Positions 4,993 through 43,177 of a stretch of DNA of 60,133 nt are shown piece by piece (the stretch's first letter is position 1; every line of letters starts with the position of its first letter). A program made the translations under genes and the position numbers. The stretch is from Candidatus Woesearchaeota archaeon (GTDB taxonomy: Archaea > Nanobdellota > Nanobdellia > SCGC-AAA011-G17 > GW2011-AR18), in assembly GCA_018302105.1 (NCBI GenBank), contig JAGWAD010000009.1, positions 1 to 60,133 of the forward strand. Direction: 5' to 3'. Below the pieces are notes generated by a model. The model was given only the letters and a program-made list of their open reading frames with translations, was not told the origin of the DNA and made no database searches.

Positions 4993-5116
4993 GAGCCTGT
5001 AGTCTAACCAGGATATAATAATTGGCTTCGGATAAACTTCAATGACTAAAAGCTATTTATGCTTTGGATGACTTAGAAGTAACCAATAGATGAGGGTTCA
5101 AATCCCTCCAGGCTCA
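4993..5116 (+). tRNA. tRNA-Arg (anticodon UCG) with a 50-base intron
   Basis: The acceptor GAGCCTG (4993-4999) pairs with CAGGCTC (5109-5115), and the discriminator is A5116. The T arm is GAGGG-TTCAAAT-CCCTC (5092-5108), the anticodon stem ATTGG/CCAAT (5021-5025 and 5083-5087). The intron is 5032-5081, at the canonical 37/38 site. Exon CTTC (5026-5029) pairs with intron GAAG (5076-5079), flanked by three-base bulges GGA and TAA, a textbook bulge-helix-bulge. The spliced loop is CT-TCG-GA, hence anticodon UCG reading CGA. G18-G19-A20 is consistent with arginine identity. CCA is not encoded. The D stem is weak, with C-A and U-U mismatches, so the isotype is less certain than the gene. Confidence 0.85.
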
Positions 5117-25525: not shown

Positions 25526-25698
25526 TGCCCCGAGCGAGATTTTCGTAGCATTTTATGTTGTGAGGATGACAGGATTCTTTGCCGGAATGCCATCCTCTGC
25601 TAATTTGAACTCGCGTCGAAGCCTTACTTTGGATACAAGTCTTCGAAACATGCATCTTCGAAAGGGCTTCATCCTTGACCGGGCTAGACGATCGGGGC
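25526..25698 (-). tRNA. tRNA-Glu (anticodon UUC) with two introns, one in the T loop
   Basis: Read on the minus strand, the acceptor GCCCCGA (25698-25692) pairs with TCGGGGC (25533-25527); the discriminator is A (25526). The anticodon stem is AAGCC/GGCTT and the spliced loop CT-TTC-GA gives UUC. Intron 1 (25625-25658, 34 bases, site 37/38) has a perfect bulge-helix-bulge: CTTT pairs with AAAG, with bulges CGA and TAA. The T arm is GCGAG-TTCAAA|T-CTCGC, split by intron 2 (25540-25603, 64 bases) between positions 59 and 60. Intron 2 has a relaxed bulge-helix-bulge (TTC/GAA helix, AAT bulges, inner stem TAGCA/TGCTA) and an internal GAGGATG/CATCCTC hairpin. The mature tRNA is 75 bases; CCA is not encoded. 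Confidence 0.9.
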
Positions 25699-25724
25699 AT
25701 CTAATGCTTGAAAAAAGGCTTTTG

Positions 25725-25732
25725 TTTATAAA
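25725..25732. promoter_or_regulatory. Palindromic TATA box upstream of tRNA-Glu
   Basis: TTTATAAA starts 27 bases upstream of the first base of tRNA-Glu on the minus strand. Being palindromic, it could also direct transcription the other way, where the 97-base repeated sequence begins at 25747. Confidence 0.55.
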
Positions 25733-25746
25733 AGTAACTCTTGTAC

Positions 25747-25843
25747 GATTCTCTTCAAACAACGGCTGATGATGTAGAAAATATTTTTTTAACAAAAATA
25801 TATCGAAGAGCCAGACCATGAAAATAACATCGTAAAAATCTAT
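25747..25843. repeat. 97-base duplicated non-coding sequence, copy 1 (between two tRNA genes)
   Basis: It matches 43293-43389 base for base over 97 bases, from GATTCTCTTCAAACAACGG to CATCGTAAAAATCTAT. It fills the spacer between tRNA-Ile and tRNA-Glu, and begins nine bases after the tRNA-Ile 3' end as read on the minus strand. It contains GGCTGATGATG facing CGAAGAGCC across an A/T hairpin, which looks like a structured RNA with a possible kink-turn. It has no coding capacity worth noting. Confidence 0.85.
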
Positions 25844-25852
25844 CGAAGAATA

Positions 25853-26008
25853 TGGGCCTGACGGGACAATCAACCGCTAATACGAATTTCGTTTAAACGA
25901 TTTTTGAACCCACGACCTTCGGCTAACTTAGCAATCTAACTTTTTTATAATTTTGGAAGCTAGATGGTCATATAAGACCGATGCTCTACCAGGCTAAGCT
26001 ACAGGCCC
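25853..26008 (-). tRNA. tRNA-Ile (anticodon UAU) with two introns, one in the T loop
   Basis: On the minus strand GGGCCTG (26008-26002) pairs with CAGGCCC (25860-25854); the discriminator is A25853. The D arm is GCTT...GAGC and the anticodon stem TCGGT/GCCGA. Intron 1 (25925-25970, 46 bases, site 37/38) has a perfect central helix CTTA/TAAG with bulges TAT and TTA. Splicing yields loop CT-TAT-AA, anticodon UAU for AUA. The T arm GTGGG-TTCAAA|T-CCCGT is split by intron 2 (25867-25902, 36 bases) at the same 59/60 site as in tRNA-Glu, with helix TCA/TGA, bulges AAA and TGT and inner stem ATCG/CGGT. The mature length is 74 bases. The upstream GATATATTTTTAAAAT near 26028-26042 is a likely promoter. 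Confidence 0.88.
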
Positions 26009-26119: not shown

Positions 26120-27304
26120 ATGTTAATAGGTGTCGTCGGAAAACCATCAACTGGAAAATCAACTTTTTTTAAATCATGTACTTTAGCAGATGTAGAGATA
26201 GCTAACTATCCATTTACAACAATCCACCCTAATCATGCAATTGGATTTGTAAAAATTGACTGTGTTGATAAGGATTTTAATAAGCAATGTAATCCGAGAA
26301 TTGGTTATTGTGTTAATAATAAAAGGTTTGTTGCTGTTGACTTATTGGATGTTGCTGGATTAGTTCCTGGAAGCCATGCTGGTGTTGGTATGGGTAATAA
26401 GTTTTTAGATGATCTAAGGCAGGCAGATGCTTTAATCCATGTGATTGATATCTCTGGAAGCACAAATGAAAAAGGAGAAAGTGTTCCTGCTTTAAGCTAT
26501 GATCCAATAAAAGATGTTGAATTTTTGGAATATGAATTAGATATGTGGTATTTGGGGCTAATAAAAAAAGGATGGGATAAATTTGTAAAACAGCAGGGAG
26601 TTGAGAAAAAAGAATTGAATAAAGCTGTTGCAAAACAATTATCTGGATTGGGTGTTAGTGAGGGTCTAGCGGAAAGTGTATTAAGGAATTATAATGAAAA
26701 TTTAAATTCATGGAATGAGAGAGACTTAATAAAATTTGCAAAACACCTTAGAAGGGAAACTAAGCCAATTATAATTGCTGCAAATAAGATTGATGTAAAG
26801 GGAAGCGAGAAGAATATTGAGAGACTGAAGGAACGATTTGGTGATTATATAATAATTCCCTGCAGTGCTTTTGCTGAACTTGCATTGAGAGAATTTGCCA
26901 AAAATAATTTAATAAAATATATTCCAGGAGAAAATAAGTTTGAAATTACTGGAAATCTGAATGATAAAGAGAAAAAAATTTTGGATTATATAAAAATTGA
27001 AATTCTTGATAAATATGGGGGTACAGGAATTCAAGATGTTTTAAATAAGGCTGTGTTTGATTTATTAAAATATATTGCAATATTTCCTGGAGGACTAAAT
27101 AACTTAGTTGATTCTCAAGGGAGAATACTTCCTGACTGTTTTTTGATGAAAGATGGAAGCACTGCTTTAGATTTTGCATATAAGCTGCATACTGATTTAG
27201 GAGATAGTTTTATTAGGGCAATTGATGTTAAGAAAAAATTAACTGTTGGAAAAGAACATAAGTTAAAACACAGGGATGTAATTGAAATTGTAAGTGGAAA
27301 ATGA
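26120..27304 (+). CDS. Obg/YchF-type GTPase with C-terminal TGS domain
   Basis: The 394-residue GTPase has G1 GKPSTGKST (residues 7-15), a TTIHPN switch region, G3 DVAGLVPGSHAGVGMGNKFLDDLRQADALIHV, G4 AANKIDV and an S-A (G5) motif. The C-terminal TGS domain is DCFLMKDGSTALDFAYKLHTDLGDSFIRAIDVKKKLTVGKEHKLKHRDVIEIV. The order matches archaeal members of the YchF/OLA1 branch. Unlike bacterial YchF and OLA1, which bind ATP through an altered G4, this has standard NKxD and should prefer GTP. It probably acts on ribosomes or translation. An AGGAG motif lies 11 bases before the ATG. Confidence 0.88.
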   Translation: MLIGVVGKPSTGKSTFFKSCTLADVEIANYPFTTIHPNHAIGFVKIDCVDKDFNKQCNPRIGYCVNNKRFVAVDLLDVAGLVPGSHAGVGMGNKFLDDLRQADALIHVIDISGSTNEKGESVPALSYDPIKDVEFLEYELDMWYLGLIKKGWDKFVKQQGVEKKELNKAVAKQLSGLGVSEGLAESVLRNYNENLNSWNERDLIKFAKHLRRETKPIIIAANKIDVKGSEKNIERLKERFGDYIIIPCSAFAELALREFAKNNLIKYIPGENKFEITGNLNDKEKKILDYIKIEILDKYGGTGIQDVLNKAVFDLLKYIAIFPGGLNNLVDSQGRILPDCFLMKDGSTALDFAYKLHTDLGDSFIRAIDVKKKLTVGKEHKLKHRDVIEIVSGK

Positions 27305-42748: not shown

Positions 42749-43177
42749 GTAGGCAAGGAATAAGCCACCTTTTGTAAAAGCCAAACGTAAACGTGTTGTC
42801 GTAAGACCTAAGTCATGTGACGTGCGTTGCCGCGATGCTTTTTCTTAACATTCTACTAAGCGCATATTTCGGTTAAGCGAATTTCGTTAATCCGACCTTC
42901 TGCTTGCACTGTTCAGGTCTTTCGTTTCATCGTATCCAATAGAGACGTCAGCAAGTTAACTCAGCAACAATTTCTTGTGCCTTCTTTGTATCATTCCAAT
43001 TCTATTGGCCGTGTCGTTTCTATAAAGTTGCCTTCCCTTTCAGGAACCCTTATGGGCAAACCCGAATATCGGTAGACGACAAGCGCCTAAGTGGGCGGAC
43101 TTTCCTCACAACCCGCAACAATTTGTCGCTTATGACTTCCTTGTTGATTGGGTGCGTTTGCTAAGTTCCTTACCTAC
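42749..43177 (-). ncRNA. rnpB: RNase P RNA
   Basis: The minus strand has the conserved-region-I sequence GTGAGGAAAGTCCGC (43109-43095). It also has complementary ends that form P1: GTAGGTAAGGAACTTAGC (5') with GCTTATTCCTTGCCTAC (3', 42765-42749). The 429-base span and its GC content, clearly above the surrounding DNA, fit a catalytic RNA that removes the 5' leader of pre-tRNAs. The exact ends are set by P1. TTTATAAA at 43200-43207 is 23 bases upstream of the 5' end. It is not interrupted by coding sequence. Confidence 0.93.

Follow-up and report, generated by a model that had tools for sequence, protein, structure and literature searches.

The T-loop position 59/60 is already on the published list of non-canonical tRNA intron sites in archaea (PMC4090602). 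According to reviews of the splicing endonuclease EndA, the α4 and α2 forms of the enzyme go together with canonical introns, and only the (αβ)2 and ε2 forms handle relaxed bulge-helix-bulge (BHB) motifs efficiently (PMC4090602, PMC6379350). An open-literature search, which was not exhaustive, found no papers on such introns in Woesearchaeota.

The window analysed here, a stretch of 60,133 nt, is contig C22 of the source genome (G000), an assembly of 1.15 Mb in 42 contigs that is 98% complete. An initial annotation, made from the letters alone, had taken the host for DPANN-like. This assignment is supported by an archaeal RNase P RNA in the window and by a GTPase gene whose best named matches are Candidatus Woesearchaeota genomes. 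The order (Woesearchaeales) and the class (Nanoarchaeia) are deduced from the names of these matches. The RNase P RNA occupies positions 42749-43133 on the minus strand and has a long insert close to its 3′ portion.

The tRNA-Ile(UAU) and tRNA-Glu(UUC) genes

Beside the GTPase gene lie two adjacent tRNA genes, each interrupted once in the anticodon loop and once in the T-loop (Table 1). The cloverleaf parse places the locus at 25526-26008, exactly where the initial annotation had it, and confirms both pairs of introns. The T-loop inserts follow TTCAAA and have the lengths that had been claimed, 36 nt in Ile and 64 nt in Glu. The spliced products are 74 nt for Ile and 75 nt for Glu, within the 74-75 bases foreseen for the mature tRNAs, and ARAGORN reads from them the anticodons TAT and TTC. 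With the T-loop insert alone retained, ARAGORN misses Ile and reports Glu only in a shortened and shifted form, and at bacterial defaults it detects none of the tRNAs of the window. A second intact Ile(UAU) or Glu(UUC) gene was not found in the 98% complete assembly.

Table 1. Parts of the two tRNA genes and the neighbouring gene, in window coordinates.
Feature	Position	Strand	Remarks
tRNA-Ile(UAU) gene	26008-25853	minus	two introns, 37/38 and 59/60
tRNA-Ile(UAU) exon 1, positions 1-37	25971..26008	minus	cloverleaf parse; ARAGORN on spliced product
tRNA-Ile(UAU) intron 1, 46 nt, 37/38	25925..25970	minus	central helix CTTA:TAAG 4/4, inner helix imperfect
tRNA-Ile(UAU) exon 2, positions 38-59	25903..25924	minus	cloverleaf parse; ARAGORN on spliced product
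tRNA-Ile(UAU) intron 2, 36 nt, T-loop 59/60	25867..25902	minus	BHB; p=0.004 against shuffles; like Ser(UGA) intron
tRNA-Ile(UAU) exon 3, positions 60-73	25853..25866	minus	cloverleaf parse; ARAGORN on spliced product
tRNA-Glu(UUC) gene	25698-25526	minus	two introns, 37/38 and 59/60
tRNA-Glu(UUC) exon 1, positions 1-37	25659..25698	minus	cloverleaf parse; ARAGORN on spliced product
tRNA-Glu(UUC) intron 1, 34 nt, 37/38	25625..25658	minus	central helix CTTT:AAAG 4/4; first inner pair mismatched
tRNA-Glu(UUC) exon 2, positions 38-59	25604..25624	minus	cloverleaf parse; ARAGORN on spliced product
tRNA-Glu(UUC) intron 2, 64 nt, T-loop 59/60	25540..25603	minus	BHB; p=0.0004 against shuffles; similar same-site intron in Glu of G003 and G006
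tRNA-Glu(UUC) exon 3, positions 60-73	25526..25539	minus	cloverleaf parse; ARAGORN on spliced product
Divergent GTPase gene beside the tRNA-Ile(UAU)/Glu(UUC) locus	26120..27304	plus	synteny anchor of the locus in the order

The BHB motifs of the two 37/38 introns had been described as perfect, which holds for their 4-bp central helices but not for the inner helices, which are interrupted. The relaxed character ascribed to the 59/60 motifs is seen in both genes, where three of the four central pairs form, with the mismatches T54·T in Ile and A57·C in Glu. In Ile the T-stem is the outer helix, TTCA:TGAT the central helix and ATCGTT:AGCGGT the inner helix, while the Glu motif has TTCA:CGAA as the central helix, followed by the inner segments TAGCA:TGCTA and then GAGGATG:CATCCTC. 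Both motifs use the T-stem as outer helix and hold T-loop nucleotides 54-57 in the central helix, and the predicted cuts fall after the second nucleotide of the 3-nt bulges. Set against 5000 dinucleotide-shuffled introns, both T-loop introns score significantly better as BHB structures (p values in Table 1).

At positions 4993-5116 of the window, on the plus strand, there is also a tRNA-Arg gene with a 50-nt 37/38 intron; ARAGORN assigns it the anticodon UCU, and its BHB (CTTC:GAAG) gives UCG.

tRNA introns of the source genome

The tRNA genes of the source genome were collected with RF00005, DNA patterns, a model of the 5′ half, a parser of our own and parsing by hand, and the census is incomplete; RF00005 alone gives only about 20 tRNA-like matches. 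Thirty genes are assessable, and 24 of them contain at least one intron, with about 40 introns overall, some of the parses having been made by eye. The scan for further T-loop introns proposed in the initial annotation brings to at least 11 the genes with a 59/60 intron, namely Ile(UAU), Glu(UUC), Cys(GCA), Gly(GCC), Ser(UGA), Ser(GCU), Ser(GGA), Ser(CGA), Lys(UUU), Ala(UGC) and one Leu. The two genes of the window are one instance of a pattern that is genome-wide and class-wide. Three introns each are found in Lys(UUU), Ser(GGA), Ser(CGA), Thr(UGU) and Phe(GAA), at 30/31, 37/38, 59/60, 53/54 or in the D-loop, the position of the D-loop introns of Phe and Ala(GGC) having been assigned by eye. 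All 14 hand-spliced genes are recognised by ARAGORN with the expected anticodon. The match at C42:2193 and many matches to GTTCRAAYC were rejected, as they are not tRNAs.

Taken individually, 10 of the 11 introns at 59/60 pair as BHB motifs better than their shuffled versions (p<0.025). Only three central pairs are present in 7 of the 11 motifs, and the Ala(UGC) intron lies outside the strict BHB register and fits only with a 3′ bulge of 4 nt. The 30/31, 53/54 and Thr D-loop introns tested in this genome have four central pairs each. The central helix shows covariation in most of the 59/60 introns of the genome, R57 being A where the intron has TGAW and G where it has CGAW. Indeed, G57 in the Leu and Ala T-loops faces an intron C, matching the requirement of the central helix. 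The G·U at a central-helix pair of Glu in the related genome G003 is also in line with the covariation. The Glu gene of the window is an exception (A57·C), and in Glu of the relative G006 G57 stands opposite A.

Some further genes of the source genome have unusual structures. The 3′ part of a tRNA-Thr(GGU) with a 37/38 intron is found at G000:C6:7395-7455 on the minus strand (L021); no 5′ acceptor/D-arm half is seen upstream, where an ORF ends, and the gene is a candidate split tRNA. The D-arm regions of Pro(UGG) (G000:C40:2610-2678, L019) and Arg(UCU) (G000:C32:21380-21454, L015) remain unparsed, which might indicate acceptor/D introns, a split gene or decay. An A at position 34, unusual for archaea, is parsed in Arg ACG (G000:C34:22010-22098, L011) and in Leu AAG (G000:C37:2981-3036 region, L099). 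The tRNA-Trp(CCA) gene (G000:C26:12135 onward, L017) has a 58-nt 37/38 intron with C/D-box-like motifs, which are also known from the Trp introns of other archaea, and possibly a second intron near 25/26.

T-loop introns in related genomes

Relatives were searched with a covariance model of the 59/60 T-arm and by exon searches. Introns at 59/60 were verified in all nine genomes of the same family, and in the survey of the phylum 47 of 371 genomes have a match to the 59/60 model at E≤1e-3, the fast filter losing weak ones. The 24 newly fetched best matches outside the family all keep four central pairs, one with a G·U, and would be acceptable to a strict enzyme; a matching acceptor and D arm accompanies 22 of them. 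One model match in G005 (L140) was discarded as not a tRNA.

Whether introns are shared was judged by similarity and not from a gene tree. The Glu 59/60 intron is common to G000, G003 and G006 (similarity p=0.003 and 0.001) and absent from G001, G002, G004, G005 and G009; on this similarity it is an intron inherited within the family. The Ile(UAU) 59/60 intron is absent from G002, G006 and the order relatives L035, L039 and L041. In these three order relatives Ile(UAU) has the 37/38 intron and is placed upstream of the same GTPase gene as in the window, and in L041 Glu(UUC), which has no T-loop intron, is also upstream of that gene. Since the Ile(UAU) genes of these order relatives have the 37/38 but not the 59/60 intron, the former looks old and the latter looks like a recent gain. 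A separate 59/60 intron of 13 nt, without an inner helix, is present in Ile(UAU) of G005. No relative of the anchor GTPase was found in viral contigs.

Ser(GCU) has a similar 59/60 intron with a conserved interior in seven genomes across genera (L101, L127-L130, L133 and L137; alignment A6). Two of its segments, AGCACTATCA in the interior and TTGATAGT at the 3′ end, do not vary among the seven and are mutually complementary (CTATCA/TGATAG), a conservation that goes beyond the needs of the BHB and may reflect a different pairing around the 3′ splice site. Pair counts show little covariation, the sequences being conserved. In L127 (G002) and L133 (G003) the 3′ acceptor strand does not directly follow the T-stem (CCCACcctata...), which suggests an additional intron in the acceptor stem.

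As had been observed initially, the two T-loop introns of the window showed no similarity to each other. The accompanying idea that an intron had spread between neighbours does not apply to the Ile and Glu genes of the window, but such spread occurs in the family: in G004, Asp(GUC) and Lys(UUU) are neighbours, and their 59/60 introns differ at only 2 of 32 positions. Within the source genome, the Ile intron has the same length as that of Ser(UGA), 36 nt, and the two agree at 26 of 36 positions without gaps; in the unconstrained interior the identity is 21 of 29 (p=1.5e-4, with 95 pairs examined). The Ser(GGA) intron of the source genome also resembles the Ser(UGA) intron of G006. The near-identity of the Asp and Lys introns and the likeness of Ile to Ser(UGA) indicate that copying between tRNAs happens, and both pairs offer a natural system for studying the copying of tRNA introns between genes. 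With Glu counterparts in G003 and G006 and the Ile intron resembling that of Ser(UGA), the two T-loop introns of the window come from different sources. A single sequence family comprising all T-loop introns was considered and rejected, as in a local test most pairs are dissimilar beyond the constrained 3′ end; global similarity tests yielded only a few related pairs.

Splicing enzymes

The source genome has one EndA gene detected with PF01974. It encodes 211 amino acids with one N and one catalytic (C) domain, and no second subunit was detected in this genome at E≤5. PF01974 scores above the cut-off in 57 of 61 genomes of the order, in nearly all exactly once, with two matches in G040, which is 6% contaminated. 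The closest solved chains are the α subunit of Nanoarchaeum equitans (3iey_A) and the α4 enzyme of Methanocaldococcus jannaschii (1a79). The protein also matches the N. equitans β chain at E 7e-16, and therefore a similar β subunit in genomes of the order should have shown.

A single α gene, N and C domains and no insertion of CSL or ASL size are the features of the α4 type. An ε2 enzyme, in contrast, is a three-unit protein of ~390 amino acids with an ASL, and the (αβ)2 type with the Crenarchaea-specific loop does not agree with the one EndA gene detected or with the lack of the 9-residue loop of Aeropyrum pernix (3p1z). Most of the aligned EndA proteins have, before the motif [FIV]-x-Y-S, a Lys that is absent from M. 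jannaschii; four of the five aligned family members have it in this place and the fifth one residue earlier. In the EndA of the source genome the motif reads FQYS, within the loop EPLDNKKFQYS.

RtcB is encoded at C8:7572-10394 on the minus strand (L298, L299). After its first 50 residues the protein has an interruption of ~500 residues within one open frame, which is probably an intein.

The initial annotation had invoked an endonuclease of relaxed specificity. The central helices with only three of four pairs in most 59/60 motifs of the source genome favour this, while the single α-type EndA without a CSL/ASL-like insertion does not. The combination of a lone α-type EndA with predominantly three-pair motifs is in tension with the reviews cited above.

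Proposed mechanism and its alternatives

The T-loop inserts are very probably BHB introns, cut by EndA and sealed by RtcB, whose site is set by the geometry of the T-arm and which arose through recurrent gain and copying. The T-arm and the anticodon arm would be alike for the enzyme, each with a 5-bp stem and a 7-nt loop. In both, the stem would serve as the outer helix, and loop nucleotides 1-4 would pair with the 3′ end of the intron to form the central helix. Sites 37/38 and 59/60 would then be equivalent, each cut falling between the sixth and the seventh nucleotide of its loop. Nearly all T-loops open with TTCA or TTCG, so that in almost any tRNA a segment whose 3′ end is a TGAA-like tetranucleotide followed by 2 nt could act as a 59/60 intron. 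This nearly constant TTCR start would allow introns to be gained repeatedly and independently and to be copied from one tRNA to another, and the equal geometry of the arms would lead to convergence on 59/60 without special specificity. The EndA acting here would most probably be a homotetramer, built from a single kind of α subunit. Against this mechanism stand the three-pair motifs in most 59/60 introns of the source genome, the register of Ala(UGC), the A57·C of Glu, the G57 opposite A in Glu of G006 and the scant covariation in Ser(GCU). The chances are about even for the broader proposal that throughout Nanoarchaeia tRNAs have a second standard intron site at 59/60, served by a homotetrameric α4-type EndA by virtue of the equivalence of T-arm and anticodon arm.

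A truly relaxed EndA, owing to a diverged β subunit or to the Lys of the N-domain loop standing in for the CSL/ASL lysine, is a serious but rather doubtful alternative. It would be in line with the 7 of 11 three-pair motifs, with the 13-nt intron of G005 and with the conservation of the Lys in most of the proteins but not in M. jannaschii; moreover, the closest solved relative, N. equitans α, works with a β subunit. However, a genome nearly always has one PF01974 match, no second subunit was seen in the source genome, even though its EndA readily matches the N. equitans β chain, the insertion of the A. pernix type is absent, and the introns at class level keep all four central pairs. That the genes are decaying pseudogenes, or that the inserts are retained while other copies supply the function, would explain the unusual structure and nothing else; with intact exons, no further copy of either gene found in the assembly, inserts at the same site across several genera and the BHB statistics, this is hardly credible.

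Equally far-fetched is the removal of the inserts by another nuclease, or their being mobile or self-splicing elements. Introns do move between tRNAs, but the inserts are 13-74 nt long without coding capacity, and their BHB pairing fits EndA; a search of the window for group I/II catalytic cores gave no Rfam intron match, the inserts there being 36 and 64 nt. A different proposal concerns the persistence of the introns and is not a rival mechanism: they may be kept for breaking the T-arm attachment site of integrating viruses or plasmids, as introns have been proposed to protect tRNA genes from those integrases for which the anticodon loop and the T-arm serve as targets (PMC4090602). It is unlikely here, as copying and a tolerant enzyme explain the spread without any benefit.

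What appears new is the density of these introns and the leading role of the T-loop site in a DPANN group with a lone α-type EndA. If the α4 reading is true, the rule that links α4 with few, canonical introns and (αβ)2 and ε2 with many non-canonical ones is broken. Many T-loop introns served by a single α-type EndA would force a revision of this rule or reveal an overlooked specificity element. Moreover, with scanners that have no 59/60 model, tRNA counts and the completeness estimates derived from them can come out too low.

Comparison with known systems

N. equitans, known for its tRNA splicing and split tRNAs, belongs to a related lineage, and its EndA α is the closest solved structure; it differs in that α is paired with a β subunit, and no such second gene was found here. 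In the Asgard Atabeyarchaeia and Freyarchaeia, as here, most tRNA genes are disrupted, often at non-canonical sites and many by several introns; these archaea are from another phylum, and the parts of their description consulted report neither a dominant T-loop site nor the type of EndA (PMC11291895).

ARMAN (Micrarchaeota) are DPANN archaea with non-canonical introns too, but they have an EndA of their own, the three-unit ε2 enzyme of ~395 amino acids with an ARMAN-specific loop, whereas that of the source genome has 211 amino acids and one catalytic domain. The similarity of intron organisation extends to the Thermoproteales (Pyrobaculum, Thermofilum, Caldivirga), where up to three introns per tRNA occur at sites that include 30/31, 53/54 and 59/60, and where similar introns in different tRNAs point to transposition. 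Their EndA is of the (αβ)2 type with the Crenarchaea-specific loop, while the source genome, a member of the DPANN, has one α-type gene without this loop and uses 59/60 as its leading non-canonical site.
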